Source of the DNA: Blastococcus colisei
GTDB taxonomy: Bacteria; Actinomycetota; Actinomycetes; Mycobacteriales; Geodermatophilaceae
Direction: 5' to 3'
Assembly: GCF_006717095.1 (NCBI RefSeq)
Contig: NZ_VFQE01000001.1
Span: 248,001 to 312,000, forward strand
Length of the DNA stretch: 64,000 nucleotides
Positions 10,117-29,265 of the stretch are shown one piece after another. The notes below the pieces were generated by a model. It was given only the letters and a program-made list of their open reading frames with translations, made no database searches and was not told where the DNA came from. A program made the translations under genes and the position numbers. The stretch's first letter is position 1. The number at the start of each line of letters is the position of its first letter.

Positions 10117-10914
10117 ATGGCTGAAACGGTGACCACCGCCGCGAAGGCCGGCCCCGCCTACCCGATCTCGTCCGTGGACAACGCGCTCCGGCTCGTGCTG
10201 ATGCTGCGGGACCAGCCGCGCCTGCGGCTCTCGGGGATCGCCGTGGCGCTGGACATCGCTCCCTCCACCGCGCACCGGCTGCTGGCGATGCTCGTCCATC
10301 ACGGCTTCGTCCGGCAGGAGGATGGCATGGGTACCTATGTCGCCGGTCCGGCGTTGCTGGAGCTGGGGCTGGCTGCCGTGCGCAACCTCGACATCCGCAC
10401 CTACGCCCGGCCGATCCTGGCCGACCTCGCCAGGAAGACCGATGAGACGGTGCATTTGGCGCAGCTGGAGGGCGCCAAGACGCGGTACCTGGCCGCCGCC
10501 GAGAGCGGCCAGCCGCTGCGGGTGGCCGACCGGACCGGCCAGCTCCTCCCGGCGCACCGCACGGCGACCGGCAAGGCGATCCTCGCCTCGTTCACCGGTC
10601 AGCAGCTGGACGAGATCTTCTCGCTGGACCAGCTCGGCAACGGCGAGGGACTCACCCCGGAGGACCGGGCGCAGCTCGATGCCGAGCTGCTCGAGGTACG
10701 GGAACGGGGATATGCGACCAACCACCGGGTGGCAGAGGACATCATCTCCGTCGCCGTGGCGGTGCAGGACCACCGCGGGGCCAGCATCGCCGCCATCAAT
10801 GCGTCCGCGCCGTCGAGCCGCATGACCAAGAAGAGGCAGATCGCCGTGGTTCGGGACCTGCACGCCGCCGCCGCCCAGCTGGAGGGCCTGCTCAGCACCG
10901 GAGGCCGCACCTAG
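10117..10914 (+). CDS. IclR-family transcriptional regulator
   Basis: A 265-residue regulator. The N-terminal winged helix (residues about 20-80) contains LSGIAVALDIAPSTAHRLLAML. The effector domain follows, with the conserved HRTATGKAILA and the closing segment SIAAINASAPSSRM. IclR proteins commonly switch aromatic-catabolic operons in response to ring-cleavage acids. Placed immediately after the aldehyde dehydrogenase gene with its own leaderless-type promoter, it may regulate the island together with the GntR protein. Ligand unknown. Confidence 0.9.
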   Translation: MAETVTTAAKAGPAYPISSVDNALRLVLMLRDQPRLRLSGIAVALDIAPSTAHRLLAMLVHHGFVRQEDGMGTYVAGPALLELGLAAVRNLDIRTYARPILADLARKTDETVHLAQLEGAKTRYLAAAESGQPLRVADRTGQLLPAHRTATGKAILASFTGQQLDEIFSLDQLGNGEGLTPEDRAQLDAELLEVRERGYATNHRVAEDIISVAVAVQDHRGASIAAINASAPSSRMTKKRQIAVVRDLHAAAAQLEGLLSTGGRT

Positions 10915-10949: not shown

Positions 10950-12182
10950 TCAGGCCTCGCGGCGGCGCTGGGCGGGTGACGTGGCCAGCAGCGCGTTCTC
11001 GACGGCGGCGTCGCCGAGCTTGCGCTCGAAGCCGGCGGGGATGACGAGGTCGTCGCGACTGAGCTCGGCGACGTCGGGGCGGCCGAGGCCGACCATCGCC
11101 GACCCGAGACCGTCGCGCAACAGGTCGAGCACGTTCTCCACGCCGGCCTGGCCGTTGGCCGCGAGGCCCCACAGGTAGGCGCGGCCGATCATGACCGCCT
11201 TGGCGCCCAGGGCCAGGGCCTTGGCGACGTCGCCACCGCGGCGGATGCCGCCGTCCAGGAGCACCTCGATCTGGTCGCCGACCGCGTCGGCGACCGCCGG
11301 CAGCGCCCGTACCGAGGCCGGCGTGCCGTCGAGGTTGTTGCCGCCGTGGTTGGAGACCGAGATGGCCGTGACTCCCGCGTCGACGGCGCGCCTGGCGTCG
11401 TCGACCCGCATGACGCCCTTGAGCATGAAGGGCCCGTCCCACTGCTCGCGCAGCCAGGCGACGTCCTCCCACGTGGGCATCGGCGACTGCATCCACATGC
11501 CGTAGGCGCCGAAGAAGGTGGGTGCGTCGTCACCGGGGTTCGCCACCATGTTCGGGACGGTGAGGTCCGGGATCTTCCCGGTCCTCGCGAAGTCCAGGAG
11601 CCAGCGCGGCTTGACCAGGACCTGGGGCGCGTACCGGCGGGCCGCCGCGAAGTCGATCTTCTCCGGGATGAACGGGCTGCCCCAGTCGCGGCCGTACGCG
11701 AAGGACCAGTCGAGCGTGGCGATCAGCCCGACGGCGCCGGCCTTCCTGGCCCGCTCCATGCGGGCGAGCATCTCCTCGCGGGTGCCCACCCAGTACATCT
11801 GGAAGAAGGTCTGCGGGTTGGCCGCGGCGACCTCCTCGATCGGCTTGCTCGCGAACGACGAGAGCCCCATCGACACCCCGCGGGCGGCTGCGGCGCGGGC
11901 GACGGCGACCTCGCCGTCGGGGTGGACCGCCTGCACACCGGTCGGGCTGATCAGAATCGGCATCGACATGGACTGGCCCATGACGGTCACGCCCATGGTG
12001 CGCTCGTTGGCCAGGCCGGCGGTGTGGGGGGCGAAGCCGATCTCGGCGAAGGCGGCCAGGTTGTCCTCGAGGGTCAGGCCGCGCTCGGAGCCGGCGACCA
12101 GGGCGCCGTACACGCCCTTGGGCAGCCGCTTCCTGGCCCGGCGCTGGGCCTCGGCGACCGACTCGAACCACGGGTTAGCCAT
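10950..12182 (-). CDS. mftD: pre-mycofactocin synthase MftD (FMN-dependent)
   Basis: A 410-residue flavoenzyme of the L-lactate dehydrogenase/glycolate oxidase fold. In mycofactocin biosynthesis it oxidatively deaminates AHDP, the heterocycle released by MftE, to give redox-active pre-mycofactocin. The FMN barrel motif with the catalytic His is visible as SNHGGNNLDGTPAS, followed by the phosphate-binding LLDGGIRRGGDVAKALALGAKAVMIGR split over two strands. ATG 12182 is chosen because GAGGAGG precedes it; upstream in-frame starts would cross the operator. It lies downstream of mftR on the minus strand, divergent from mftABC. In many genomes mftD follows mftC, so this is a rearranged position. 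Confidence 0.93.
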   Translation of the reverse strand: MANPWFESVAEAQRRARKRLPKGVYGALVAGSERGLTLEDNLAAFAEIGFAPHTAGLANERTMGVTVMGQSMSMPILISPTGVQAVHPDGEVAVARAAAARGVSMGLSSFASKPIEEVAAANPQTFFQMYWVGTREEMLARMERARKAGAVGLIATLDWSFAYGRDWGSPFIPEKIDFAAARRYAPQVLVKPRWLLDFARTGKIPDLTVPNMVANPGDDAPTFFGAYGMWMQSPMPTWEDVAWLREQWDGPFMLKGVMRVDDARRAVDAGVTAISVSNHGGNNLDGTPASVRALPAVADAVGDQIEVLLDGGIRRGGDVAKALALGAKAVMIGRAYLWGLAANGQAGVENVLDLLRDGLGSAMVGLGRPDVAELSRDDLVIPAGFERKLGDAAVENALLATSPAQRRREA

Positions 12183-12239
12183 CGTCGGACCTCCTCGGGC
12201 CCGGTCGTCCGGGTCCATCGACCGGCCCTCGACGGCCGG

Positions 12240-12260
12240 TGGCACTGAGTGCCAGCCTAT
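12240..12260 (-). promoter_or_regulatory. palindromic operator at the mftD promoter
   Basis: TGGCACT-G-AGTGCCA at 12240-12254 is a perfect 7-bp inverted repeat around a single base. On the minus strand it directly abuts a TAGGCT -10-like box (12259-12254), so it would cover the transcription start of mftD. Its half-site GTGGCAC plus a pyrimidine and G recurs in the palindrome before mftA. Binding by MftR is inferred. Confidence 0.55.
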
Positions 12261-12422
12261 CCGTCGGTGCGGGCACCAACGCTCCCCCCGCGAGGGTGGA
12301 CCCCGCGGATGCCCGGCCGCGTCGGCTGACGTCCAGCCGTGCTCCGGCGCGGCTCGACGTCAGGTCGGGCGGCTCCCCATGCGCGCCGCACCTCATCGCA
12401 GGTGTCGCAGGGAGTCCGGTCC

Positions 12423-13022
12423 TCACCGGCCGAGGGTCGGGAATCCCGCCGCCATCTCGTCGAACGCTCGGTGCAGGAGCCGGGTGAGGGAGGACCGCCC
12501 GTCGGCGAGCCACGCCTCGAACGCCGTCGTCGCCGCCGCCCGGGTGCTCGCCGCCACCAGCCGGGGGACCAGCGCGTCGGCCGAGGTCCGGGTCCGCTCG
12601 GCGACGTGCCGCGCGACCACCCGGTCGACCTCGGCGAACCGCAGCTGCGAGTGCGCCAGCAGCGCCGGCTCGCCCAGGATCAGCCGCATGCGCTCGCGGA
12701 GCAGCGGCAGTTCGGCGTCCGGATAGTCGTTCGCCTCGACGTAGGCCGCGCAGACCGAGGCGAGCACCCCCGTCGCAGGGTCCGTGGCGGTGAGCAAACC
12801 CTCCAGGCGGGCGACGTGGCCGGCGAAGTCGCCCCACACGGCGTCGGCCTTCGTGGGGTAGTAGCGGAAGAACGTCCGGCGGCTGATGCCTGCGGAGTCG
12901 GCGACCTCGTCGCTGGTCACGTTCTCGAAGCCGCGGGAGGCGAAGAGCTCCAGGGCCGCCCGCTCGACGCGCACCCGCGTGCCCCCGGTCGGTGGTGTCC
13001 CCGTCCCGGTCACGCGCAGCAT
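12423..13022 (-). CDS. mftR: mycofactocin system TetR-family regulator MftR
   Basis: A 199-residue TetR protein. The HTH at residues about 20-65 reads GFENVTSDEVADSAGISRR then TFFRYYPTKADAV, the signature of MftR-type regulators. The helical C-terminal ligand domain ends in DEMAAGFPTLGR. ATG 13022 is preferred because the longer frame to 13070 would consume the intergenic operator. Mycobacterial MftR represses MFT synthesis and is released by long-chain acyl-CoAs. Here the gene is divergent from mftA with 78 bp between starts, so it can control both directions and possibly mftD 240 bp downstream. Confidence 0.9.
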   Translation of the reverse strand: MLRVTGTGTPPTGGTRVRVERAALELFASRGFENVTSDEVADSAGISRRTFFRYYPTKADAVWGDFAGHVARLEGLLTATDPATGVLASVCAAYVEANDYPDAELPLLRERMRLILGEPALLAHSQLRFAEVDRVVARHVAERTRTSADALVPRLVAASTRAAATTAFEAWLADGRSSLTRLLHRAFDEMAAGFPTLGR

Positions 13023-13026
13023 TGTG

Positions 13027-13061
13027 CCGGTGTTGCCAGTGGCACCGGGTGTCACTAACGT
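13027..13061 (+). promoter_or_regulatory. mftA promoter overlapped by candidate MftR operator
   Basis: Predicted -35 TTGCCA (13033-13038), 17-bp spacer, -10 TAACGT (13056-13061), giving a leader of about 35 bases before mftA. A nested palindrome covers the -35: outer arms CCGGTG (13027-13032) and CACCGG (13043-13048), inner TGCCA-G-TGGCA (13034-13044). It shares GTGGCAC with the mftD palindrome. A repressor here would block RNA polymerase at mftABC and also lie just upstream of mftR. Confidence 0.6.
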
Positions 13062-13100
13062 CCGCGGCACCCGCCCTCGCCCCGCTCCGGAGGTATCGCC

Positions 13101-13235
13101 ATGCCCGAGACGCCCCAGACCGACGTTCCCGTCCTCGAGGCCGGATCGGGCGGGCAGGCCCTCGTCGAGGAGGACCTGGTGGAGGAGTCGCTGGTCGAGG
13201 AGGTCTCCATCGACGGCATGTGCGGCGTCTACTGA
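13101..13235 (+). CDS. mftA: mycofactocin precursor peptide MftA
   Basis: A 44-residue ribosomally made precursor. It ends in IDGMCGVY, the conserved core: MftC decarboxylates the last Tyr and joins it to the adjacent Val, and MftE later releases the Val-Tyr-derived heterocycle. The remainder is an acidic leader for MftB binding and contains three tandem pentapeptides, LVEED-LVEES-LVEEV (residues 21-35). GGAGG sits 9 bases before the ATG. Clearly the start of the mftABC operon; nothing is truncated. Confidence 0.96.
   Translation: MPETPQTDVPVLEAGSGGQALVEEDLVEESLVEEVSIDGMCGVY
13161..13205 (+). repeat. three 15-bp tandem repeats inside mftA
   Basis: Three consecutive 15-base units encode LVEED, LVEES and LVEEV in the MftA leader. 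They differ mainly at third codon positions and the last codon. The number of units could vary by slippage and would change the length of the leader peptide. Confidence 0.75.
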
Positions 13236-13261
13236 GCCGCCCGGTCGACGAGGTCGCCACC

Positions 13262-13549
13262 GTGCTGACGGACGTCGCCTTCGATCCGTCGCTGCCGTGG
13301 CAGAAGGCCCGGTCGGTGGCGCTGCGGCCGGAGCCGTTCGGTGCGCTGGCCTACCACTTCGGCAACCGGAAGCTCTCCTTCCTGAAGTCGAGGACGCTGG
13401 TCGCCGTCGTGGAAGCGCTGGCCACCCACCCGAGTGCCGAGGCGACGCTGGCCGCCTGCGCCGTGCCTGACGGGCAGCGCCCCGCCTACGTCAAGGCGCT
13501 GGCCGACCTTGCCCGTTCGCAGATGATCGAGCCCCGGGAGACCCCGTGA
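13262..13549 (+). CDS. mftB: mycofactocin peptide chaperone MftB
   Basis: A 95-residue PqqD-like RiPP recognition element that presents the MftA leader to MftC. The family core RPEPFGALAYHFGNRKLSFLK is present, with a C-terminal helix (PAYVKALADLARSQMIEPRE). GTG 13262 is chosen because GAGG lies 8 bases upstream and it gives a normal length; a GTG at 13220 would overlap mftA by 16 bases without a good ribosome site. Its stop overlaps the mftC start. Confidence 0.92.
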   Translation: MLTDVAFDPSLPWQKARSVALRPEPFGALAYHFGNRKLSFLKSRTLVAVVEALATHPSAEATLAACAVPDGQRPAYVKALADLARSQMIEPRETP

Positions 13550-14769
13550 CCACCGTCTTGCCGTCCCGCCCGCAGCGCCCCCAGGGCGGCCGGCTGGTCG
13601 ACCAGTTCGAGTACGGCCTGGACGCCCCGATCTGCCTGACCTGGGAGCTCACCTACGCCTGCAACCTGGCGTGCGTGCACTGCCTGTCCTCCTCGGGACG
13701 ACGCGACCCGCGCGAGCTCTCCACCGCCGAGGCCGAGGCGGTCATCGACGAGCTGCAGCGGATGCAGGTCTTCTACGTCAACGTCGGCGGCGGCGAGCCC
13801 ACCGTGCGCCCGGACTTCTGGCACCTGCTCGACTACGCCATCGGCCACGACGTCGGCGTCAAGTTCTCCACCAACGGCATCAGGCTCGACCGGGCCCGCG
13901 CCGACCAGCTGGCCCGCACCGACTACGTCGACGTCCAGATCTCCCTGGACGGCGCGACCGCCGAGGTGAACGACGCCGTCCGCGGCACCGGCTCCTTCGC
14001 GACGGCCGTGAAGGCCCTGGAGAACCTGGCCGAGGCCGGGATGAAAGATGTCAAGGTCTCGGTCGTCGTCACCCGCGAGAACGCCGGGCAGCTCGACGAC
14101 TTCAGGGCGCTCACCGACCGCTACGGCGCCCAGCTGCGGATCACCCGCTTCCGGCCCGCGGGGCGCGGTGCCGACGTCTGGGACCGGCTGCACCCCACCC
14201 AGCAGCAGCAGCGGGAGCTGTACGCCTGGCTGCTCGACAACGGCGACCGGGTGCTGACCGGCGACTCCTTCTTCCACCTCTCGGCGCTCGGCGAGGCCCT
14301 GCCCGGGCTCAACCTGTGCGGCGCGGGCCGGGTGGTCTGCCTGATCGACCCGGTCGGCGACGTCTACGCCTGCCCGTTCGCCATCCACGAGAACTTCCTC
14401 GCCGGCAACGTGCGCGACGAGGGCGGCTTCCAGCGGGTGTGGCAGCAGTCGGAGCTGTTCGCCGACCTGCGCAACCCGCAGACGGAGGGCGCATGCACCA
14501 AGTGCGCCCACTTCGACGCCTGCCGCGGCGGTTGCATGGCGGCCAAGTTCTTCACCGGGCTGCCCCTGGACGGCCCCGACCCCGAGTGCGTGCAGGGCTA
14601 CGGCGAGACGGCGCTGGCCGCCCGCGACCTGGGGCTGGCCACCCCGCGCAGCCACATCGACCACTCGCACAAGGGCCCGGTCCGCGGCCAGCCCACGCTG
14701 CTGGGCATCCCGTCGATCCCCAGCAAGATCTGCGACGAGTCACCGCTGGCCGGGCTCGACCTGCGCTGA
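13546..14769 (+). CDS. mftC: mycofactocin radical SAM maturase MftC
   Basis: A 407-residue radical SAM/SPASM enzyme. C39, C43 and C46 (CNLACVHC) bind the SAM [4Fe-4S] cluster, and NVGGGEPT is the SAM-binding loop. The SPASM domain has the cysteine series starting at CGAGRVVC and CPF, then CTKCAHFDACRGGC, for auxiliary clusters. It performs oxidative decarboxylation of the MftA C-terminal Tyr and then the Val-Tyr cross-link. Its GTG overlaps the mftB stop (GTGA). The tail DESPLAGLDLR is typical of the family. Confidence 0.96.
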   Translation: MTTVLPSRPQRPQGGRLVDQFEYGLDAPICLTWELTYACNLACVHCLSSSGRRDPRELSTAEAEAVIDELQRMQVFYVNVGGGEPTVRPDFWHLLDYAIGHDVGVKFSTNGIRLDRARADQLARTDYVDVQISLDGATAEVNDAVRGTGSFATAVKALENLAEAGMKDVKVSVVVTRENAGQLDDFRALTDRYGAQLRITRFRPAGRGADVWDRLHPTQQQQRELYAWLLDNGDRVLTGDSFFHLSALGEALPGLNLCGAGRVVCLIDPVGDVYACPFAIHENFLAGNVRDEGGFQRVWQQSELFADLRNPQTEGACTKCAHFDACRGGCMAAKFFTGLPLDGPDPECVQGYGETALAARDLGLATPRSHIDHSHKGPVRGQPTLLGIPSIPSKICDESPLAGLDLR

Positions 14770-14855
14770 AACGTCTCCCGCGGTGATCCACCCCGAAGGG
14801 GGCAGCTGACCGGTCGGGGGTACAGCGAGCCGGGCGAGCAGCCGATGCGGGGAAC

Positions 14856-16739
14856 GTGATCCTCCGACTCCGCGACCGGTGTGCCCGGCTGCTGCCCGAG
14901 GGTCGGCTGCTGCCCGAGGCCGTCTGGGAGCGTCGGCACCGCGCCATCATGCGGCTCTGCCTGGCCTCGGCCGGGCTGCTCGTGCTCGTCGCCTGGCTGC
15001 AGGGCGGCGGTCAGCCGGCCGCCGTCGCCGTCCTGGCCGCCGTGGCCGGCCCCGTCGCCCTGGCCGCCGTCCCGCGGCTGGGACGCAAGGGCCGCGCCGC
15101 CGCGACGACGGCGAGCCTCCTGGCCGCTTCCGTGGCGCTGGTCCATCTCTGGGGCGGGGTCACCGAGGCGCACTTCATCTTCTTCGTGATGATCGGCGTC
15201 GTCTCGCTGTACCAGGACTGGGTGCCGTACGGCATCGCCCTGGTCGTCGTCGTCGTGCACCACGGCGTCTTCGGCACGATGTACCCGCACGAGGTGTACA
15301 GCCACGACGCGGTGCACGACCCCTGGCTGTGGGCGGGGATCCACGCGGCGTTCGTGCTCGCGGCGAGCATCGCTCACCTGGCCGCCTGGCGGCTCAACGA
15401 GGACCAGGTCCTCAGCGACCCCCTGACCGGCCTGGCCAACCGGACGCTGCTCGAGGAGATCACCCACCGCCTGCTGGCTCGAGGCGGAGCGGTCAGCCTG
15501 CTGTTCATCGACCTCGACGACTTCAAGGACATCAACGACAGCCGCGGGCACGCGGCCGGCGACGGGCTGCTGCTGGTCCTCGCCGAGCGGCTCCACGGTT
15601 GCGTGCGGCCGGGGGACGTCGTCGCGCGGATCGGCGGCGACGAGTTCGCCGTCGTCGTCAACGGTGGCCCGGACGTCGCCCGCTCGGTCGGCGAGCGCGC
15701 CCTCGTGGCGCTGTCGGTCCCCGTGCCACTGGCCGACGGCATGGTGACGGTGCACGCCAGCGTGGGTGTCGCCGCCTCCACGGACGCCACCGACCGCACC
15801 GCCGGCGCTCTGCTCCGCAACGCCGACCTCGCCATGTACCTGGCGAAGGCCCAGGGCAAGAACCGGCTGGTCGTCTACGCCGACGGCATGGCCGAGGCCG
15901 CGCGCCGCCGCGCGGGCCTTGCCCAGGACCTGGCCGTCGCCGCCGACGCCGGGCAGCTGGAGGTCCACTACCAGCCGACGGTGCGCCTGACCGACGGCCG
16001 GACCACCGGGTTCGAGGCGCTGGTCCGCTGGAACCACCCCGGCGGCGGCCTGGTGCCGCCCGGGGAGTTCATCCCGCTCGCCGAGGAGACCGGCGCGATC
16101 ACCGGCATCGCCCGCTGGGTGCTGCGCGAGGCCCTGCGCCAGGGCGCCGTCTGGCTGGCGGAGACCGGGACGCCGCTGCGCATGGCCGTCAACCTCTCGC
16201 CGCGCCAGTTCCAGGACGGCGACGTGACCGCCGACGTCGTGGCCGCGCTCGAGGAGAGCGGATTCCCCGCGGAGCTGCTCACCCTCGAGGTCACCGAGGG
16301 CGTCCTGGTCCGGGACGTCGACTCGGTCGTCGCCCACCTGGAGGCGCTGCGCACCCTGGGGATCCGCATCGCCATCGACGACTTCGGCACCGGATTCTCC
16401 GGACTGTCCTACCTGCGCCACCTGCCGGCCGACATCATCAAGATCGATCGCAGCTTCGTCATGGACCTGCCGCGGGGCCGCTCGGCCACCACGTTGATCA
16501 CGTCGATCGTCGAGCTGGCCCGCACCCTGGGCCTCGACGTCGTCGCAGAGGGCGTGGAGACCGAGGGGCAGCGCCAGGCGCTCGCCGACCTGCACTGCGC
16601 CCAGGCGCAGGGCTACCTGTTCGCCCGGCCCGCCCCGGCCGCGCGCGCCGGGGCGAGCCTGCCGGGCCGTCCGGCGCGGGTGCCGGCGCAGCCCGGGGCG
16701 CCCGCGGTCGAGCGGTTGCAGGGCACCCGCAGGCACTGA
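14856..16739 (+). CDS. membrane GGDEF-EAL protein (cyclic-di-GMP synthase/phosphodiesterase)
   Basis: A 627-residue membrane protein. About residues 30-185 form a multi-helix sensor with His-rich loops (VVHHGVFGTMYPHEVYSHDAVH). The GGDEF domain has an intact GGDEF at 260-264 and an RxxD inhibitory I-site (RPGD 251-254) five residues before it. The EAL domain has EAL at 387-389, NLSPRQ, EVTEG, DDFGTGFSGLSYL, KIDRSF and EGVETEGQ, so both catalytic sites look competent. It lies 86 bp downstream of mftC on the same strand, an unusual neighbour for the MFT operon. Whether it is read from the mftA promoter is unknown. Confidence 0.93.
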   Translation: MILRLRDRCARLLPEGRLLPEAVWERRHRAIMRLCLASAGLLVLVAWLQGGGQPAAVAVLAAVAGPVALAAVPRLGRKGRAAATTASLLAASVALVHLWGGVTEAHFIFFVMIGVVSLYQDWVPYGIALVVVVVHHGVFGTMYPHEVYSHDAVHDPWLWAGIHAAFVLAASIAHLAAWRLNEDQVLSDPLTGLANRTLLEEITHRLLARGGAVSLLFIDLDDFKDINDSRGHAAGDGLLLVLAERLHGCVRPGDVVARIGGDEFAVVVNGGPDVARSVGERALVALSVPVPLADGMVTVHASVGVAASTDATDRTAGALLRNADLAMYLAKAQGKNRLVVYADGMAEAARRRAGLAQDLAVAADAGQLEVHYQPTVRLTDGRTTGFEALVRWNHPGGGLVPPGEFIPLAEETGAITGIARWVLREALRQGAVWLAETGTPLRMAVNLSPRQFQDGDVTADVVAALEESGFPAELLTLEVTEGVLVRDVDSVVAHLEALRTLGIRIAIDDFGTGFSGLSYLRHLPADIIKIDRSFVMDLPRGRSATTLITSIVELARTLGLDVVAEGVETEGQRQALADLHCAQAQGYLFARPAPAARAGASLPGRPARVPAQPGAPAVERLQGTRRH

Positions 16740-16752
16740 GCCGGGAGCGCGC

Positions 16753-17235
16753 CTACGAGAGGTCGACCTTCTCGTTCTCCCCGGCGTCGGTCCGCTCGCC
16801 GGTGACCTTGGCCTTCACGAAGCTGAACGCCGTCGCCAACCGGCCGCCCGGGCTGTCCCAGTACTCCGCGGAGTCGGCCTCCACCTTGATCAGGACGACG
16901 CTGTCGTCGTCCGGACCCTGCGGGAACCACGCCTCGACGGCGCCGTTCCACAGCTCTCGCTTCTTCGCCGTGTCCGTCACGACGACGGCGTCGCCGGTGA
17001 GGGACACCCACGTGCCGCCCGACCCGACGCCGACGTTCACCTGCGGGGAGGCGGTGACGTGCTGGACGGGGTTCGAGTCGCGCTCGGCGAAGAACCACAG
17101 GTCACCGTCGAACTCCACCTCCTGCAGCGTCATGGGCCGGCTGGTCAGCGTGCCGTCGGTCCGGATGGTGGTGAGGAAGCCGAACCGCTCACCCTTGATC
17201 AGCTCGGCCACCTTGCGCGTCTGGTCTGTCGTCAT
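16753..17235 (-). CDS. pyridoxamine 5'-phosphate oxidase-fold (general stress protein 26-like) protein
   Basis: A 160-residue split-barrel flavin- or F420-binding-type protein. Recognisable pieces are RFGFLTTIRTDGTLTSRPMTLQ, GDLWFFAERDSNPVQHV and the WVSLTGDAVVV strand. The full length matches the general stress protein 26 group, whose cofactor and substrate are not fixed. ATG 17235 follows AAGGGAGG. It is transcribed against the surrounding mycofactocin genes and ends 13 bp from the GGDEF-EAL gene. A role in MFT biology is not shown. Confidence 0.82.
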   Translation of the reverse strand: MTTDQTRKVAELIKGERFGFLTTIRTDGTLTSRPMTLQEVEFDGDLWFFAERDSNPVQHVTASPQVNVGVGSGGTWVSLTGDAVVVTDTAKKRELWNGAVEAWFPQGPDDDSVVLIKVEADSAEYWDSPGGRLATAFSFVKAKVTGERTDAGENEKVDLS

Positions 17236-17259
17236 GGGCCTCCCTTGCCCACCACCGAT

Positions 17260-17283
17260 CCGCCGACACCCCGTGTCTAGGCT
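17260..17283 (+). promoter_or_regulatory. leaderless-type mftE promoter with small inverted repeat
   Basis: TAGGCT at 17278-17283 ends 6 bases before the mftE ATG and no ribosome site is present. GACAC-CCC-GTGTC lies immediately upstream and could be an operator. It is only weakly like the two palindromes near mftA and mftD. Confidence 0.4.
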
Positions 17284-17289
17284 GCGCCG

Positions 17290-17985
17290 ATGACCTCTCT
17301 GGCCGGCGCCGTCTGGCCGGAGATCCCCGATGCGCCGTTGCTCGTCGTGCCCCTCGGCTCGGTCGAGCAGCACGGCCACCACCTGCCGCTGGGCACCGAC
17401 ACGTCGGTCGCCCGCGCCGTCGCCGCCGCGGCGGCCGGGGCGCTGGACGGCGCGCTCGTGGCACCCGCCCTGGCGTACGGCGCGAGCGGTGAGCACGAGG
17501 GCTTCCCGGGCACGATCTCGCTCGGCACCGAGGCGCTGACCGGCCTGCTCGTCGAGTACGGCCGCTCCGCCGGCCGCTGGGCCACCCGCGTGCTGGTCGT
17601 GAACGGGCACGGCGGCAACCTCGATGCCCTGCGCGCGGCCGTGCCGCTGCTGCGGTCGGAGGGGCGCGACGTCGCCTGGTTCCCGTGCGGGGTACCCGGG
17701 GGCGATGCGCACGCGGGGCGCACCGAGACGTCACTGATGTTGCACGTGGAACCTCATGGGGTGCGGGAGGAGCGCGCCGTCGCCGGGGCGACCGCGCCGA
17801 TCCGCGATCTGCTCCCGCGACTGCGGGCGGAGGGCGTCCGGGCGGTGAGCCCGACCGGCGTCCTCGGCGACCCCGCCGGCGCTTCACGCGCCGAGGGCGC
17901 CGCACTGCTGGCGGAGATCACCGGGCGGCTGGTCGCCGCCGCCGAGGGGTGGAACGTCGACGGCGCCGGCCGGCTCCTGGACTGA
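17290..17985 (+). CDS. mftE: mycofactocin peptidase MftE (creatininase family)
   Basis: A 231-residue metallo-amidohydrolase that cleaves the MftC-modified precursor and releases the Val-Tyr-derived AHDP unit. Metal-site motifs of the creatininase fold are visible: PLGSVEQHGHHLPLGTD near the N-terminus, VNGHGGN, and GGDAHAGRTETS. Length is normal for MftE. It is separated from mftC by the GGDEF-EAL and stress-protein genes and has its own probable promoter. Confidence 0.93.
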   Translation: MTSLAGAVWPEIPDAPLLVVPLGSVEQHGHHLPLGTDTSVARAVAAAAAGALDGALVAPALAYGASGEHEGFPGTISLGTEALTGLLVEYGRSAGRWATRVLVVNGHGGNLDALRAAVPLLRSEGRDVAWFPCGVPGGDAHAGRTETSLMLHVEPHGVREERAVAGATAPIRDLLPRLRAEGVRAVSPTGVLGDPAGASRAEGAALLAEITGRLVAAAEGWNVDGAGRLLD

Positions 17986-18019
17986 CAGGGCCGACCGACG
18001 CCGCAGGCCGTGTCAGAGC

Positions 18020-19030
18020 TCAGCCGTCCAGGGCGTCGGCGAAGAGCGGGACCGTCGTCTCCAGGGCGTAGAGCAGGCCCGGCGCCGAGGCGCTGGAGAA
18101 GGCGTTGAGCACGGTGAGGTCGTCGAGGACGACGGCGCGACCCTCCTGCACCGAGGGCAGGGCCTGCCACAGCGGGTTCCCGGTGAACTCCGACGCCTCG
18201 ACGAAGATCGGGAACACCACCGTCAGCTCGGCGTCGAGCAGGCCGAGCTGCTCCTCGCTGACCGGGATGAAGAAGTTCTCCGTCGCGAGGTCCTCGATCT
18301 CGGTCTTGTTCTCGAAGCCGAGCTGCTCCATGAAGGCGACCCGGGCATCCCCGCTCACGTACGCCCCGAAGCCCTCCGAGGTGTAGGCGCCGACGGCGAC
18401 CTCGGTGCCCTCGAACTCGGGGTGCGCCGCGGCGGCGTCGGCGAACGCCTGCTCCACCTCGGCGGCCAGCTCCTCGGCCTCGTCGGTCCTGCCGAGGGCC
18501 TGGCCCACCATCTCCAGCTGCTGCTGCCACGTGGTCTGGTACGGACCCACGCCTTCGGGCTGGCTGATCGTGGGGGCGATCTCGCTGAGGAGCTCGTGGC
18601 GCTCCTCGGTTGCGGCGGACCTGGTGTCCAGGATCAGGTCCGGCTCGAGGGCGGCGATCGCCTCGAAGCTCGGCTCCATCGTCTCGATGAGCTCCGGTGC
18701 CTCCTCGTAGCCCTGCTCGACCCACTCCCCGAGGCCGTCGTCGCCGCCGACGGCGAGCCAGTCGCTGGCGCCGACCGGCTCGACGCCGAGCGCGAGCGCC
18801 GTCTCGGCGTCCGACCAGCCCAGCGCCACGACGCGGGTCGGCTCCTCCTCGACGGTCACGTCGCCGAAGGCGGTGCTGATCGTGACCGGGAAGGCCTCCG
18901 ACGAGCCGGACGCCGACCCGCCGGTCCCGGTGGCGGAGTCGTCGCCGGAATCGTCGCCGGAGCCGCAACCGGTGACGACGAGGGCGGTGACGAGGAGGGC
19001 AGCACCGCGGAGGGCGGGACGGGCAGACAT
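18020..19030 (-). CDS. iron-siderophore ABC transporter substrate-binding lipoprotein
   Basis: A 336-residue FecB/FhuD-type periplasmic-binding protein. The signal peptide ends in a lipobox (VVTGC, lipidated Cys22), followed by a Ser/Gly/Asp linker. The mature protein begins with the family's FPVTISTAFGDVTVEEEPTRVVAL split motif. It would deliver a ferric siderophore to a FecCD-type permease, but no permease or ATPase gene lies near. An IdeR/DtxR-like box sits just upstream, so iron repression is expected. It interrupts the mycofactocin cluster between mftE and mftF. Confidence 0.9.
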   Translation of the reverse strand: MSARPALRGAALLVTALVVTGCGSGDDSGDDSATGTGGSASGSSEAFPVTISTAFGDVTVEEEPTRVVALGWSDAETALALGVEPVGASDWLAVGGDDGLGEWVEQGYEEAPELIETMEPSFEAIAALEPDLILDTRSAATEERHELLSEIAPTISQPEGVGPYQTTWQQQLEMVGQALGRTDEAEELAAEVEQAFADAAAAHPEFEGTEVAVGAYTSEGFGAYVSGDARVAFMEQLGFENKTEIEDLATENFFIPVSEEQLGLLDAELTVVFPIFVEASEFTGNPLWQALPSVQEGRAVVLDDLTVLNAFSSASAPGLLYALETTVPLFADALDG

Positions 19031-19049
19031 GCGTGTTCCCTTCCGGAGA

Positions 19050-19068
19050 CCAGGTAAGGCTGACCTAA
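19050..19068 (-). promoter_or_regulatory. IdeR/DtxR iron box
   Basis: The plus strand reads AGGTAAGGCTGACCTAA at 19052-19068, differing at two positions from the consensus core AGGTTAGGCTAACCT. It lies 22 bases upstream of the binding-protein ATG on the minus strand, where an iron-loaded repressor would block transcription. Confidence 0.8.
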
Positions 19069-19137
19069 GCACACGATCCTGTGGGTGTGGCCGCCACCCC
19101 GTCCACGGCTCGCGACCGCACGGGAGAGAATCGCCGG

Positions 19138-19692
19138 GTGAGCACACCTGGACCGGAGCTCGAGGGCTGGCTCGTCGTCGTCGACCTGCAGCGCGTGTTC
19201 GCCGACGAGTCCTCGCCCTGGACCACGCCGCGCTTCGAGGAGGCTCGTGCGAAGGTCCGCCGGCTGGTCGCGGCGTTCGGCGACCGGGTGGTGTGGACAC
19301 GGTTCGTCGCACCGGAGCAGCCGACCGGGGCGTGGAAGGAGTACTACGCGAAGTACGACTTCGCCCTCCAGCCCCCGGACGCCGAGTGCTACCAGTTGGT
19401 CGAGGACCCCGGCACCCACCGCGTCCTCGACGCGACCACGTTCGGCAAGTGGGGGCCGGAGATGGCCGAGGTGGTCGGGGACGGGCCGCTGACCGTCGTC
19501 GGGGTGGCCACCGACTGCTGCGTCCTCTCCACGGTGCTCCCCGCGGCCGACGCCGGGGTGGCCGTCCGCGTCGTGGGCGACGCCTGCGCCGGTTCCTGCG
19601 ACGAGGACCACGACCGCGCGCTGCGGATCATGGGCCTGTACGCACCGCTGGTGGAGATCACCACCACCGACGAGGTGCTGGCCGGGCGGTGA
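19138..19692 (+). CDS. isochorismatase-family cysteine hydrolase
   Basis: A 184-residue alpha/beta hydrolase of the nicotinamidase/isochorismatase family. The catalytic triad candidates are D16 (VVVDLQ), a Lys in TTFGKWG and C128 in the TDCCVLST motif. It acts on an amide or ester whose identity is not evident. GTG 19138 has GGGAGAGA upstream. Its stop overlaps the GTG of mftF (GTGA), so the two are translationally coupled. It is not a standard mycofactocin gene and its link to MFT chemistry is open. Confidence 0.88.
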   Translation: MSTPGPELEGWLVVVDLQRVFADESSPWTTPRFEEARAKVRRLVAAFGDRVVWTRFVAPEQPTGAWKEYYAKYDFALQPPDAECYQLVEDPGTHRVLDATTFGKWGPEMAEVVGDGPLTVVGVATDCCVLSTVLPAADAGVAVRVVGDACAGSCDEDHDRALRIMGLYAPLVEITTTDEVLAGR

Positions 19693-21167
19693 CGCCGGCC
19701 GCGCCCGAAGGCAGGCTCCCTGCCGGGTTCGCCGTCCGGCTGGACCCGCGGACCCGCGCCCGGGACGGCGGTGCCGTCCTGGTCGGCGGCTCGCCGCTGC
19801 GCCTGCTGCGGCTCTCCCCGCGCGCCCGGGCACTGCTCGGCGACGGCCGGCTGGTGGTCCGCGACGCGACGACGGCGGCCCTCGCCGCCCGGCTGCTGGA
19901 CGCCGGGCTGGCCCACCCCGACCTCGCCGGGCGGCCCGCGGACGACGTGACGGTCGTCGTCCCGGTGAGGGACCGCCCCGCGGCGCTCGACCGATTGCTG
20001 GCGGCGCTGCGCACCGACCCGGGGACGGCGGGCCTGCCGGTGGTCGTGGTGGACGACGGCTCGGCGGTTCCGGTGGACGTGCCGGAGGGGCTCCGGGTCG
20101 TGCGGCATCCCGTGGCCCGGGGGCCGGCAGCGGCTCGGAACGCGGGCCTGCGGGTGGCGGCGACGCCGTTCGTGGCGTTCCTGGACTCCGACTGCGTCCC
20201 GCTCCCCGGCTGGCTCCATCGCCTGCGGCCGCATCTCGACGACCCGCAGGTGGCCGTCGTCGCCCCCCGGATCGTGCCGCTGGGCGGAGGTCCGGGCTGG
20301 TTCGCCGCGTACGAGGCGGCGGTCAGCGCCCTCGACATGGGCGAGCACCCCGCCGCCGTGCGGCCGGGGTCGGCCGTCTCGTACGTGCCGAGCGCGGCGC
20401 TGCTCGCCCGCCGGGAGGCGCTCGGACCGGGCTTCGACGAGTCGATGCGCGTCGCCGAGGACGTCGACCTGGTCTGGCGGCTGTCCGCCGCGGGGCGGCG
20501 GGTGCGGTACGAGCCGGCTGCCGCGGTGGCGCACGACCATCCGGCGACGACGGGGGAGTGGCTGCGCCGGCGTGCGTTCTACGGCACGGGCGCCGCCCTG
20601 CTCGCGGCCCGGCACGGGAACGCCGTGGCGCCCCTCGTGATCGCCCCGGAGACGGCTCTGGCATGGGGGCTGGCGCTGTCCGGGCGGCGCTGGGGCCGGA
20701 TGGCCGCGCTGGGTGTCCTGGGCGTGACCGCAGCCCGCCTCGCGCCCCGGCTCGCGGCGCCCGGGGAGCGGCCGCCGGCCGGGTTCGCCGCCCTGCTCGT
20801 CGCCCGGGGCGTGGGCGCCTCCGGCCGGGCGCTCGCCCGTTCGGTCACCCGGCACCACTGGCCGGTGGCGCTGGCGGCGGCGCTGGTCTCCCGCCGCGCC
20901 CGTCGCTGGGTGCTCACGGCCGCCGTCGTCGATGCCGCCCTGGCCTGGTGGCCGCACCGGCAGTGGGTGGGACCGGTCCGTTTCGCCGTCGCGCGGCGGC
21001 TGGAGGACCTGGCCTACGGCGCCGGGTTGTGGACCGGCGTGGTGCGCCGAGGCAGCCCGGCAGCGCTCCTCCCCACCCGACCACCGAGGGAACGTGCCGA
21101 TGAACACCCTGCCGGTTCCCGTCCGGCCGGAATGAGCCCGGACCCCCGGGACTTGTCGCCCTCGTAG
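19689..21167 (+). CDS. mftF: mycofactocin glycosyltransferase MftF
   Basis: A 492-residue family-2 glycosyltransferase that decorates (pre-)mycofactocin with beta-1,4-glucose units. An N-terminal PqqD-like/recognition region (about 1-80) precedes the GT-A domain starting DDVTVVVPVRDRP. VVVVDDGS, FLDSDCVPLPGW and VAEDVDLVWRL (acid/acceptor site) are present. The C-terminal third is Ala/Arg-rich with weakly hydrophobic helices, consistent with membrane association. It is the last mft gene of the cluster here; mftG is not in the window. Confidence 0.9.
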   Translation: MTPAAPEGRLPAGFAVRLDPRTRARDGGAVLVGGSPLRLLRLSPRARALLGDGRLVVRDATTAALAARLLDAGLAHPDLAGRPADDVTVVVPVRDRPAALDRLLAALRTDPGTAGLPVVVVDDGSAVPVDVPEGLRVVRHPVARGPAAARNAGLRVAATPFVAFLDSDCVPLPGWLHRLRPHLDDPQVAVVAPRIVPLGGGPGWFAAYEAAVSALDMGEHPAAVRPGSAVSYVPSAALLARREALGPGFDESMRVAEDVDLVWRLSAAGRRVRYEPAAAVAHDHPATTGEWLRRRAFYGTGAALLAARHGNAVAPLVIAPETALAWGLALSGRRWGRMAALGVLGVTAARLAPRLAAPGERPPAGFAALLVARGVGASGRALARSVTRHHWPVALAAALVSRRARRWVLTAAVVDAALAWWPHRQWVGPVRFAVARRLEDLAYGAGLWTGVVRRGSPAALLPTRPPRERADEHPAGSRPAGMSPDPRDLSPS

Positions 21168-25403: not shown

Positions 25404-25907
25404 ATGACCCAGATCAACGTGCGGGTCGACGGGGCGTCCTACAGCGACGACGTCGAACCGCGGACGCTGCTCGTCCACTACCTGCGGGAGCAACTCGGCA
25501 AGGTCGGCACCGTCGTCGGTTGCGACACCAGCAACTGCGGCGCGTGCACCGTGCACCTCGACGGCGAGGCCGTGAAGAGCTGCACCGTCTTCGCCGTCCA
25601 GGCCGACGGCAGCGAGGTCACCACGATCGAGGGCATCTCCTCGAACGGGACCCTGCACCCCATGCAGAAGGCATTCCACGAGATGCACGGCCTGCAGTGC
25701 GGGTTCTGCACCCCCGGGATGATCATGGCGTCGATCGACCTGGTGAAGGACAACCCGGACCCCAGCGAGGACGAGGTGCGCGAGGGCATCGAGGGCAACC
25801 TCTGCCGGTGCACCGGCTACCAGAACATCATCCGCGCGGTGCAGCAGGCCGCCGGTGAGATGAGCGGCCGCACCGCTGCTGCCGACACCCTCGGAGCGCA
25901 GTCATGA
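25404..25907 (+). CDS. coxS: CO-dehydrogenase/xanthine-dehydrogenase family small [2Fe-2S] subunit (CoxS-like)
   Basis: A 167-residue iron-sulfur subunit of a molybdenum hydroxylase. The plant-type [2Fe-2S] site is C40, C45, C48 and C60 (CDTSNCGAC). The second four-helix cluster site is C99, C102, C134 and C136 (CGFCTPG, CRCTGY). It transfers electrons from the molybdenum centre to the FAD subunit. It is first in an S-L-M operon and its stop overlaps the large-subunit ATG. Confidence 0.93.
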   Translation: MTQINVRVDGASYSDDVEPRTLLVHYLREQLGKVGTVVGCDTSNCGACTVHLDGEAVKSCTVFAVQADGSEVTTIEGISSNGTLHPMQKAFHEMHGLQCGFCTPGMIMASIDLVKDNPDPSEDEVREGIEGNLCRCTGYQNIIRAVQQAAGEMSGRTAAADTLGAQS

Positions 25908-28414
25908 CCCTCGTCGAGGAGCCGGCCGCCGCGACGCCGGAGAAGGAGATCGGCAGGGCGCGCCGCCGCAAGGAGGACGCCCGGCTGATCACGGGCAGGA
26001 CCACGTGGACCGACAACATGGTCCTGCCGGGGATGCTGCACCTCGCGATCGTCCGCAGCCCCGTGGCCCACGCCAGGATCACCAACGTCGACGTCTCGGC
26101 GGCCCAGCAGGCACCCGGCGTCATCGCGGTCTTCACCGGGGCAGACCTCGCCGAGGAGCAGGGTTCCCTGCCCTGTGCCTGGCCGGTCACGCCGGACATG
26201 GTGAACCCGGGGCACCCGTCGGTCGCCGTCGACGAGGTGAACCACGTCGGCGAGGCCGTCGCGGTCATCGTGGGGCGCAGCAAGGTCGCCGCCCAGGACG
26301 CCGTCGAGCTGGTCGACGTCGATTACGACCTGCTGCCCGTCGTCCTCGACATGGAGGAGGCGGTGAAGGACGGGGCGGACCTCGTCCACGACCACACGTC
26401 GGCCAACACCAGCTACCACTTCGTCTTCGACGCCGGCGAGGCCGGCACCGGTGCCGACACCGAGCAGGCGTTCGCCGACGCCGAGGTCGTGGTCAGCCGA
26501 CGGTTGATCAACCAGCGGCTGATCCCGGCCTTCATGGAGCCCCGCTCCGTGGTGGTCCAGCCGCAGGGGGACAACTACACCTTGTGGTCGGCCACCCAGA
26601 TCCCGCACATCCTCCGGGTGATGCTGGCGATGGTCACCGGTGTTCCCGAGCACAAGCTGCGGGTCATCGCGCCGGACGTGGGGGGCGGGTTCGGCGGCAA
26701 GATCACGCCCACGCCCGAGGAGGTCCTGACCCTCCTGGTCGCCCGGCGGCTCGGGAAGCCGATCAAGTGGACCGAGACGCGCAGCGAGTCGCTGATGACC
26801 GCCCACCACGGCCGCGACCAGATCCAGTACATCGACATCGCGGCCGACCGCGAGGGCAACGTCAAGGGCCTGCGCGTCCGGCTGCTGGCCGACATGGGCG
26901 CCTACCTGCGGCTCATCACGCCGGGCATCCCGGCGCTCGGGGCGTTCATGTTCCCGGGCATCTACAAGTTCCCGGCCTACCGGTTCGAGTGCGACGGCGT
27001 CTTCACGAACAAGGTGCCCACCGACGCCTACCGCGGCGCCGGCCGGCCCGAGGCGACCTTCGCCATCGAGCGGATCATGGACGAACTCGCCGTCGAGCTC
27101 GGCATGGACCCGCTGGAGCTGCGGCGGAAGAACTGGATCCGGGCCGAGGAGTTCCCGTTCACCACCGTGGCCGGGCTGCAGTACGACAGCGGCGACTACG
27201 ACGGCGCCACCCAGGCGGCGCTGGAGCTGCTCGGCTACGACGAGCTGCGCGCGGAGCAGCAGCGGCGCCGGGAGTCGGGCGACCCGGTCCAGCTGGGCAT
27301 CGGCTTCTCCACCTTCACCGAGATGTGCGGGCTGGCCCCCTCCCGGGTGCTGGGGTCGCTGTCGTTCGGCGCCGGTGGCTGGGAGTCCGCGTCGATCCGG
27401 ATGCTCCCCACCGGCAAGGTCGAGGTGGTCACCGGGTCCACGCCGCACGGGCAGGGCCACGAGACGGCGTGGAGCCAGCTGGTCGCCGACCACCTCGGCG
27501 TCCCGTTCGAGGACGTCGAGGTGCTGCACGGCGACACCGCCATCTCCTCCAAGGGGCTGGACACCTACGGGTCCCGGTCCCTGGTCGTCGGCGGCACCGC
27601 GGTGGTGAAGGCCGCCGAGAAGGTGGTGGCCAAGGCCCGGAAGATCGCCGCGCACCTGCTCGAGGCCAGCGAGGACGACCTGGAGTTCTCCGGCGGGAAG
27701 TTCTCCGTCCGGGGCACGCCGGGAACGGGCCTGGGCATCCAGGAGATCGCCCTGGCGATCTTCGCCGCGCACAACTACCCGGAGGGCGTCGAGCCCTCGA
27801 TCGACGCCGAGGCCACGTTCGACCCGGAGAACTTCTCCTTCCCCCACGGCACGCACATCTGCGCCATGGAGGTCGACACCGAGACCGGGTTCGTCAAGAT
27901 CCGCAAGTACGCCTGCGTGGACGACGTCGGCACGATCGTCAACCCGCTGATCGTCGAGGGGCAGGTGCACGGTGGGTTGGCGCAGGGGATCGCGCAGGCG
28001 CTGTACGAGGAAGCCGTGTACGACGCCGACGGCAACCTGACCACCGGCACCTTCGTCGACTACCTGGTGCCGTCGGCCGCCGACCTGCCGCACTTCGACA
28101 CCGGGAACACGGTGCACGAGGCGACGTCGAACCCGATCGGGGCCAAGGGCGTCGGCGAGGCGGGATGCATCGCCAGCACCCCGGCGGTGGTCAACGCCGC
28201 CATCGACGCCGTCCGGCACCTGGGGGTCAGCGACCTCCGGATGCCCCTGACACCCGAACGGGTCTGGCGGGCACTCCATGAGGGCGGGGACGGTGCTGGT
28301 CTCCCACCCGGCCCCGACCGTGCCACCGCCGGCACCATCGCCTACGGCGGCGCCTCCACGGAGACGTCGTCGGGGGTCTCGACCGATGCTTCCTCGCTGG
28401 GAGGGGACCGATGA
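25904..28414 (+). CDS. coxL: form II CO-dehydrogenase-like large molybdopterin subunit
   Basis: An 836-residue molybdopterin-cytosine-dinucleotide hydroxylase. The active-site loop at residues 375-381 is AYRGAGR, the mark of form II (BMS) CoxL proteins; form I, proven to oxidise CO, has AYXCSFR. VGGGFGGK, the Gln-rich GQGHETAW and the C-terminal KGVGEAG with the catalytic Glu are present. The S-L-M order also fits form II. The true substrate of form II enzymes is uncertain and may be another aldehyde or heterocycle rather than CO. Confidence 0.92.
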   Translation: MTLVEEPAAATPEKEIGRARRRKEDARLITGRTTWTDNMVLPGMLHLAIVRSPVAHARITNVDVSAAQQAPGVIAVFTGADLAEEQGSLPCAWPVTPDMVNPGHPSVAVDEVNHVGEAVAVIVGRSKVAAQDAVELVDVDYDLLPVVLDMEEAVKDGADLVHDHTSANTSYHFVFDAGEAGTGADTEQAFADAEVVVSRRLINQRLIPAFMEPRSVVVQPQGDNYTLWSATQIPHILRVMLAMVTGVPEHKLRVIAPDVGGGFGGKITPTPEEVLTLLVARRLGKPIKWTETRSESLMTAHHGRDQIQYIDIAADREGNVKGLRVRLLADMGAYLRLITPGIPALGAFMFPGIYKFPAYRFECDGVFTNKVPTDAYRGAGRPEATFAIERIMDELAVELGMDPLELRRKNWIRAEEFPFTTVAGLQYDSGDYDGATQAALELLGYDELRAEQQRRRESGDPVQLGIGFSTFTEMCGLAPSRVLGSLSFGAGGWESASIRMLPTGKVEVVTGSTPHGQGHETAWSQLVADHLGVPFEDVEVLHGDTAISSKGLDTYGSRSLVVGGTAVVKAAEKVVAKARKIAAHLLEASEDDLEFSGGKFSVRGTPGTGLGIQEIALAIFAAHNYPEGVEPSIDAEATFDPENFSFPHGTHICAMEVDTETGFVKIRKYACVDDVGTIVNPLIVEGQVHGGLAQGIAQALYEEAVYDADGNLTTGTFVDYLVPSAADLPHFDTGNTVHEATSNPIGAKGVGEAGCIASTPAVVNAAIDAVRHLGVSDLRMPLTPERVWRALHEGGDGAGLPPGPDRATAGTIAYGGASTETSSGVSTDASSLGGDR

Positions 28415-29265
28415 TTCCCGCGCCGTTCGCCTACGCCCGCCCGTCCACGATCGACGAGGCGCTGCAAGCGGTCGCCTCCGGCGGGGAGGACGTGAAGATC
28501 CTCGCCGGTGGCCAGTCGCTCATCCCGGTCATGCGGCTGCGGCTGGCCGCCCCGGAGACCGTCGTCGACCTGACCCGCGTCGCGGAGCTCCGCGGGGTCC
28601 GGGACGACGGTGACGTCATCGTCATCGGTGCCATGACGACGCACTCCGACGTCCTCTCCGACCCGCTGATCGCGCGGTACGCGTCGCTCATCGCGGAGGC
28701 CACCGAGACGGTCGCGGACCGGCAGGTGCGCCACCGCGGCACCTTCGGCGGAGCCCTGGCCCACGCCGACCCGGCCGGTGACCTGCCGGCCGTCGCCCTG
28801 GCCCTGGACGCCGAGTTCGTCGTCGCCGGGCTCGAGGGGCGGCGCACCGTGAGAGCGTCGGAGTTCTTCGTCGACTACCTGACCACCGCGCTGCAGGAGG
28901 GGGAGCTGCTCGTCGAGATCCGCGTCCCCAAGCGCGAGGGCTGGGGCATGCACTACGAGAAGTTCAACCGGGTGGCGCAGGCCTGGTCGATCGTGGCCGT
29001 CGCCGCGGCCGTGCGGATGGAGGGCGGCCGGATCGCCGAGGCGCGGATCGGGCTGACCAACATGGGCCCGACCCCCCTGCGGGCGTCGGCGGTCGAAGCG
29101 GCGCTGACCGGCGCCGAGGCCACTGCCGAGGCGATCTCGGCAGCGGCGGGACGTGCCGGTGAGGGCACCACCCCGAGCAGCGATCTCAACGCGCAGGCCG
29201 ACTACCGCCACCACCTCGCCACGGTGCTCACTCGCCGTGCGGTGACGGCGGCCTGCGGGCTGTAG
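28411..29265 (+). CDS. coxM: FAD-binding medium subunit of CO-dehydrogenase-like enzyme (CoxM-like)
   Basis: A 284-residue subunit that binds FAD and passes electrons onward. FAD motifs AGGQSLIPVMRLRL near residues 30-45 and VRHRGTFGGALAHADPAGD (HRGT-TxGG type) near 108 are present. The C-terminal domain (SDLNAQADYRHHLATVLTRRAV) is complete. ATGA overlap with coxL. A hairpin separates it from the coxG-like gene. Confidence 0.93.
   Translation: MIPAPFAYARPSTIDEALQAVASGGEDVKILAGGQSLIPVMRLRLAAPETVVDLTRVAELRGVRDDGDVIVIGAMTTHSDVLSDPLIARYASLIAEATETVADRQVRHRGTFGGALAHADPAGDLPAVALALDAEFVVAGLEGRRTVRASEFFVDYLTTALQEGELLVEIRVPKREGWGMHYEKFNRVAQAWSIVAVAAAVRMEGGRIAEARIGLTNMGPTPLRASAVEAALTGAEATAEAISAAAGRAGEGTTPSSDLNAQADYRHHLATVLTRRAVTAACGL

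Follow-up and report, generated by a model that had tools for sequence, protein, structure and literature searches.

The mycofactocin (mft) locus considered here lies in a 64,000-nucleotide stretch of the Blastococcus colisei genome, the window of this analysis, and judged by its sequence it is very probably an ordinary, intact locus of Blastococcus-like Geodermatophilaceae with the dispersed layout common in that family, the genes that intervene between its parts being neighbours rather than parts of the pathway. These inserted genes are most likely bystanders because they vary among the genomes that keep the pathway and mostly persist in those that have lost it. The genes and sites of the locus are as follows, with profile scores set against the cut-off of the model named and operator scores taken from a position weight matrix (PWM).

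10950..12182, minus strand: mftD, pre-mycofactocin synthase (TIGR03966, 693.7 bits against 470.85)
12233..12256, minus strand: MftR-operator-like site before mftD, with the perfect palindrome TGGCACTCAGTGCCA (PWM score 16.2)
12423..13070, minus strand: mftR, TetR-type regulator (TIGR03968, 224.5 bits against 224.9; PF17754 over its cut-off)
13038..13061, plus strand: MftR-operator-like site between mftR and mftA (PWM score 39.4)
13101..13235, plus strand: mftA, precursor of 44 amino acids with C-terminal IDGMCGVY (TIGR03969, 44.8 bits against 25)
13262..13549, plus strand: mftB, precursor chaperone (TIGR03967, 110.6 bits against 33)
13546..14769, plus strand: mftC, radical SAM maturase (TIGR03962, 645.9 bits against 265)
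14856..16739, plus strand: GGDEF-EAL protein, probable bystander (PF00990, PF00563; in 18 of 57 loci)
16753..17235, minus strand: PPOX flavin-fold protein, probable bystander (PF16242; in 49 of 57 loci)
17290..17985, plus strand: mftE, peptidase (TIGR03964, 331.8 bits against 172)
18020..19030, minus strand: siderophore-type substrate-binding lipoprotein, probable bystander (PF01497; lipobox-like VTGCGSG in the translation; in 48 of 57 loci)
19050..19069, no strand assigned: iron-box-like palindrome of the lipoprotein gene (14-15 of 19 consensus letters)
19138..19692, plus strand: isochorismatase-like cysteine amidohydrolase (PF00857; overlaps mftF by 4 bp)
19689..21167, plus strand: mftF, glycosyltransferase (TIGR03965, 505.3 bits against 280)

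Families were assigned with the curated cut-offs of Pfam and NCBIfam. The original prediction had listed mftD, mftR, mftA, mftB, mftC, mftE and mftF as present and intact, and the profile scores agree with it; its coordinates are right as well. Six of the seven proteins (MftA, B, C, D, E and F) exceed their NCBIfam cut-offs, with mftA adjoining mftB and mftC, while MftR falls 0.4 bits short of its own, yet carries the Pfam MftR C-terminal domain at 111.2 bits against a cut-off of 22.7. The true start of mftR may be nearer 13022 than 13070. Judged from strand, gap and intervening genes, the locus comprises four to five transcription units (mftD, mftR, mftABC, mftE and isochorismatase-mftF), which supports the predicted minimum of four, and Pfam together with a search for the iron box confirmed the interleaved GGDEF-EAL, flavin-fold, iron-boxed lipoprotein and cysteine hydrolase genes. 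Elsewhere in this genome (5.16 Mb in 4 contigs) are MftG (C1:492288, 464.5 bits against 387.45) and four mycofactocin-coupled dehydrogenases over cut-off, two each of TIGR03971 and TIGR03989. Among named records, the best segments matching MftF come from Blastococcus tunisiensis (83%), B. haudaquaticus and B. litoris (both 78%).

To place this layout, we compared 80 loci from an MftF scan (30 of them outside Geodermatophilaceae) and 40 stretches of further family genomes, while genome-wide presence was counted over 112 family genomes. The tally of gene order left out 14 same-assembly loci (keeping the copy in a named record even if shorter), the satellite loci L003 and L116-L118, a foreign cluster in genome G028 and four pathway-free loci; 69 rows remained, and removal of 12 without mftC, mftE or mftF on the stretch gave 57 loci, window included. 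One duplicate pair among the 69 (L046 and L102) affects neither these 57 nor the 46 loci with hydrolase and mftF counted below, since L046 is among the 12 removed. The dispersed layout proved common in the family, with the exact order of the window found in five of the 57 loci, the window itself included. The PPOX gene occurs in 49 of these loci, the lipoprotein gene in 48 (between mftE and mftF in 41, after mftF in 7), the hydrolase gene in 38 and the GGDEF-EAL gene in only 18, a count on which we rejected the last as a conserved mft partner. Variability of the inserted genes in relatives is what the original prediction had named as its refutation, and the functional link to mycofactocin proposed for them is not supported; in the suggested comparison of gene order, the overlap of hydrolase and mftF proved conserved (44 of 46) and the GGDEF-EAL gene did not. 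The placement of mftD, of which it was remarked that the gene 'has moved', is a lineage trait rather than a quirk: among the 22 loci with mftD on the stretch, the gene precedes mftC in 17 and is found between mftC and mftE in the other 5. Of 68 family loci, 22 hold a gene resembling the mycofactocin-coupled short-chain dehydrogenase/reductase (SDR; tblastn, 200 bits or more); where mftC and mftE were both found (56 loci), such a gene lies between them in 19, and the window has none at this position. Several loci outside the family (L071, L072, L080) have the compact order R-A-B-C-D-E-F. A compact collinear cluster, which is the usual rather than a defining trait, is not what the window holds; its scattered order is typical of the family and not peculiar to this strain. 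One genome of the same genus (G028) has a compact foreign mft cluster (L091; mftC 73%, mftF 45%), which in the MftC tree pairs with Nocardioides, a genus of another family (90/38, weak).

The 4-bp overlap between the hydrolase gene and mftF, the GTGA at 19689-19692, is present as described. In all 46 loci of the gene-order tally that hold both genes, the hydrolase gene is, among the genes tracked, directly upstream of mftF. For the junctions themselves one copy per assembly was taken (n = 46, L025 and the window included), and the phase of the overlap is kept in 44 of these distinct loci (40 with ATG, GTG or TTG and the mftF frame open, four with CTG) and differs in L025 and L090. The start letters vary and the geometry is constant, so the arrangement is a conserved one, in line with the earlier view that the overlap is maintained rather than the product of random insertion, and most likely it reflects co-expression. 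Across the family, the hydrolase reaches 200 bits, our threshold for presence, in 61 of the 112 genomes, comprising 57 of the 101 with mftC over cut-off and four of the 11 others (G097, with hydrolase pieces of only 96.9 bits, was excluded), and it was found in none of the 30 mft loci outside the family.

Residues D16, K104 and C128, which we take to be the catalytic Asp-Lys-Cys triad, are invariant in an alignment of 49 hydrolase sequences. The AlphaFold model (mean-confidence score pLDDT 92.6) matches maleamate amidohydrolase, biuret hydrolase and nicotinamidase in Foldseek (best E 9.5e-12), isochorismatase-like cysteine hydrolases with which the protein shares its fold and Asp-Lys-Cys set while being only 13-23% identical to them among the 50 structural matches listed; the NCBIfam scan gave no model over cut-off. 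By its modelled fold, the protein would be a C-N amidohydrolase acting on a small-molecule substrate of its own. In true isochorismatases of the EntB type the catalytic cysteine is replaced, and such an identity is unlikely here because the cysteine is present and invariant. A literature search returned no paper joining mycofactocin with isochorismatase, and joined mycofactocin with Geodermatophil- names only in PMC3023750.

Natural losses of the pathway allow a direct comparison of its fate with that of its neighbours. Four genomes without mftC over cut-off carry the hydrolase (G036, G090, G093 and G099), of which G036 is probably incomplete, as it retains mftD and mftF. In the other three (95-99% complete), none of mftC, mftD, mftE and mftF, the pathway genes searched for genome-wide, was found over cut-off; many weak matches of mft proteins to the pathway-free loci (E from 0.05 to about 1e-6, 22-50% identity) were read as compositional noise or unrelated regulators. 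In the hydrolase tree these three make up a single clade (100/98) that falls within genomes making the cofactor (98/86), and the loss is therefore a single event. All three keep the lipoprotein, hydrolase and major facilitator superfamily (MFS) genes in order, and two of them (G093 and G099) also the PPOX gene beside the lipoprotein gene. Their hydrolases retain D16, K104 and C128. Compared with two congeneric relatives that make the cofactor, they are 87-90% identical, a range above those of the lipoprotein (73-78%) and the MFS protein (83-84%). A separate loss is seen in G031, where mftE is kept and mftC, mftD and mftF are gone; here the GGDEF-EAL, PPOX, lipoprotein and MFS genes remain and the hydrolase is reduced to 46 C-terminal residues. 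A further genome, G111, has neither pathway nor hydrolase. Whole-pathway losses are few, and since hydrolase and pathway are retained and lost separately, neither requires the other. The persistence of most neighbours in the three-genome clade again speaks against the proposed functional link, and as candidates for missing mycofactocin functions the four inserted genes are largely eliminated by this natural test.

A first alternative is that the hydrolase serves mycofactocin itself, as an enzyme particular to this lineage that works alongside MftF and tailors or clears an intermediate at its lactam or amide, with the overlap fixing equal dosage. The constant place of its gene directly before mftF (46 of 46) and the kept phase (44 of 46) would fit such a role, as would its chemistry, given that its fold relatives cleave C-N bonds and that mycofactocin contains a lactam (PMC8728441). 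We nonetheless consider it unlikely, for 44 of the 101 mftC-positive genomes lack the hydrolase or have it only under 200 bits, it was not found in any of the 30 non-family loci, and a clade devoid of the pathway keeps it intact and highly similar; on this pattern of presence and absence and on the pathway-free clade we rejected the hydrolase as a pathway enzyme. On the preferred reading the hydrolase gene is a neighbour, and mftF most likely depends, one way, on the transcription and translation of that gene, which accounts for the conserved overlap without shared chemistry. A conserved 4-bp overlap thus need not imply that two enzymes act on the same molecule.

The regulatory sites suggest how the dispersed locus might be expressed. 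The published MftR palindrome is T-N2-GGCA-N5-TGCC-N2-A (PMC8728441), to which the palindrome in the mftR-mftA gap is close, with one letter off; the N5 spacing holds at mftA and mftD alike. A site before mftA is present in 51 of 55 loci examined, the misses being L008 (with too little upstream sequence), L049, L090 and the foreign cluster L091. Searched over the whole 5.16 Mb, the pattern TGGCACNNNGTGYCA occurs just twice, once ahead of mftA and once ahead of mftD, and a weaker site just before mftD is also found in five named relatives (L010, L012, L013, L028 and L044; scores 15.6-18.2). This genome-wide search gave no match at mftE, at the hydrolase-mftF unit, at any inserted gene or at the second mft locus (see below); mftE and mftF therefore seem to lie outside the MftR regulon, and the inserted genes share no operator pattern with mftABC and mftD, a further count against their functional link. 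From these positions, MftR is predicted to control precursor, maturation and oxidation (mftA, B, C and D), while cleavage and glycosylation (mftE and mftF) would be expressed apart from it, and MftG with the coupled dehydrogenases elsewhere in the genome would complete the system.

Set beside the known mftABCDEF-mftR cluster (Haft 2011, PMC3023750; PMC8728441), the window shares its genes, the precursor ending IDGMCGVY and the divergent mftR-mftA pair with a GGCA-N5-TGYC palindrome, and its genome shares MftG and the coupled dehydrogenases, here located elsewhere. Unlike the known cluster, mftD is divergent with an operator-like site of its own, and mftE and mftF are split from mftABC by non-pathway genes and lack the operator pattern.

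The iron box between the lipoprotein and hydrolase genes raises the further possibility that, being divergent, it renders the hydrolase-mftF transcript iron-responsive, so that glycosylation of the cofactor follows the iron supply. Across the loci, at least 13 of the 19 iron-box letters are found in 57 of 59 regions upstream of fepB, the lipoprotein gene, but before the hydrolase in only 18 of 49 loci, in each of which the lipoprotein gene lies divergently next to it. For mftF the count is 8 of 99, non-family loci included. As a control, 1500 random 200-bp stretches of the window were scanned, of which two reached 13 letters, both containing this same box. These counts assign the box, as a predicted element, to the lipoprotein gene; iron control of mftF as a general feature was rejected, and we regard it as quite improbable for the window.

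Several observations weigh against reading the inserted genes as bystanders beside an ordinary locus. The hydrolase gene and mftF are never apart in the 46 loci that hold both, more than is expected of a pure bystander, and the PPOX gene is present in as many as 49 of the 57 loci. Where the hydrolase is missing, a different enzyme could carry out its step. Only one loss event underlies the pathway-free clade that retains an intact hydrolase, and in one member, G090, nearly 19 kb read past the lipoprotein gene show no PPOX gene next to it; in G031 the hydrolase is destroyed, and in the pathway-less G111 it is absent. On the regulatory side, the reversed control pattern gave one match per strand genome-wide, and a stray site in a pathway-free locus (L108) scores 16.9, above the 16.2 of the mftD site. 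The score of the mftD site is therefore no proof by itself, and its weight comes from its location and perfect palindrome. The functions given to operators and iron box alike are predictions from sequence.

The same genome carries a second mftD-A-B-C set outside the window (C1:1846035-1865431; L137, L003), with MftD, MftB and MftC 79%, 82% and 89% identical to those of the window and neither mftE nor mftF found beside it on the 20-kb stretch. That this cassette, complete for D, A, B and C, has taken over from a decaying window locus is very improbable indeed, as the window mft genes are intact (over or within 0.4 bits of cut-off) and retain their operators, the cassette has no mftE or mftF on its stretch, and scattered order is also usual in genomes with a single mftC. 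We also rejected the notion that its mftC is a recent copy of the window gene, as it groups, weakly (96/71), with another clade of the family.

The second cassette stands at the end of a same-strand run of genes headed by a mycofactocin-coupled SDR (415 bits against a cut-off of 300), which continues with an aldo-keto reductase, SDRs, an acetoacetate-decarboxylase-like protein, a lactonase, KDPG aldolase, a kinase and an IclR regulator, and then a sugar ABC transporter, another SDR, PfpI and a sugar-acid dehydratase before mftDABC. The SDR adjoining the cassette (L003:4892-5689) was tried as a mycofactocin-coupled SDR and rejected, with 166.1 bits against 300. Close relatives of the dehydratase (89-90%) occur in two of the 111 other family genomes, G052 (L143/L145) and G098 (L144), both of which share the sugar gene run as far as it was read; G052 has the SDR that heads the run (94.5% identical), a place that the stretch of G098 did not reach. 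Of mftD, a 26-residue piece is all that follows the dehydratase in G052, and the DNA of G098 matches for about 44 bases into the gene, from which we infer that the cassette belonged to the run and was lost in both.

More than one full-length mftC over cut-off is found in three of the 112 genomes (G000, G086 and G105). The satellite cassettes L116 and L117 (both G086) and L118 (G105) consist of mftD/ABC, with no mftE or mftF on the stretch; L116 has an MftR paralogue below cut-off. Within the stretches read, a mycofactocin-coupled SDR lies near three of the four extra cassettes, that of the window's genome and two of the satellites, none being found in the 16 kb of L117. In the MftC tree, G086b falls beside G086a (100/73) and G086c with G065 (99/93), which suggests that the extra cassettes are of mixed origin, by copying and by transfer within the family.

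We tentatively propose, as possible rather than probable, a modular supply in this family, in which a shared mftE-mftF pair finishes the cofactor and mftDABC cassettes are interchangeable, moving from genome to genome together with catabolic operons that depend on mycofactocin; the second cassette here would then provide a dedicated cofactor supply for an Entner-Doudoroff-type sugar oxidation that uses mycofactocin as its electron acceptor. If so, sugar oxidation would join alcohols among mycofactocin-dependent reactions. Literature searches listed no paper pairing mycofactocin with a sugar dehydrogenase; they gave a single one, on ethylene glycol, for mycofactocin with gluconolactonase and, for a second or duplicated mft, only an engineered mftG copy. 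The second cassette is a more promising lead than the functional link once sought for the inserted genes, and together the two loci suggest that the pathway is regulated in two parts and that mobile cofactor cassettes are linked to catabolic operons.

A 5' fragment of a further mftD, with about 56 matching residues, is present at C1:241131-241410 (L138:13132-13410); an alcohol dehydrogenase gene of the TIGR03989 family lies about 2.3 kb away. Within the window, an IclR-type regulator (10117-10914) converges on mftD and has the same place in one near relative (L095, 91%), and a three-subunit molybdenum hydroxylase of the CO dehydrogenase/xanthine dehydrogenase kind is encoded at 25404-29265.

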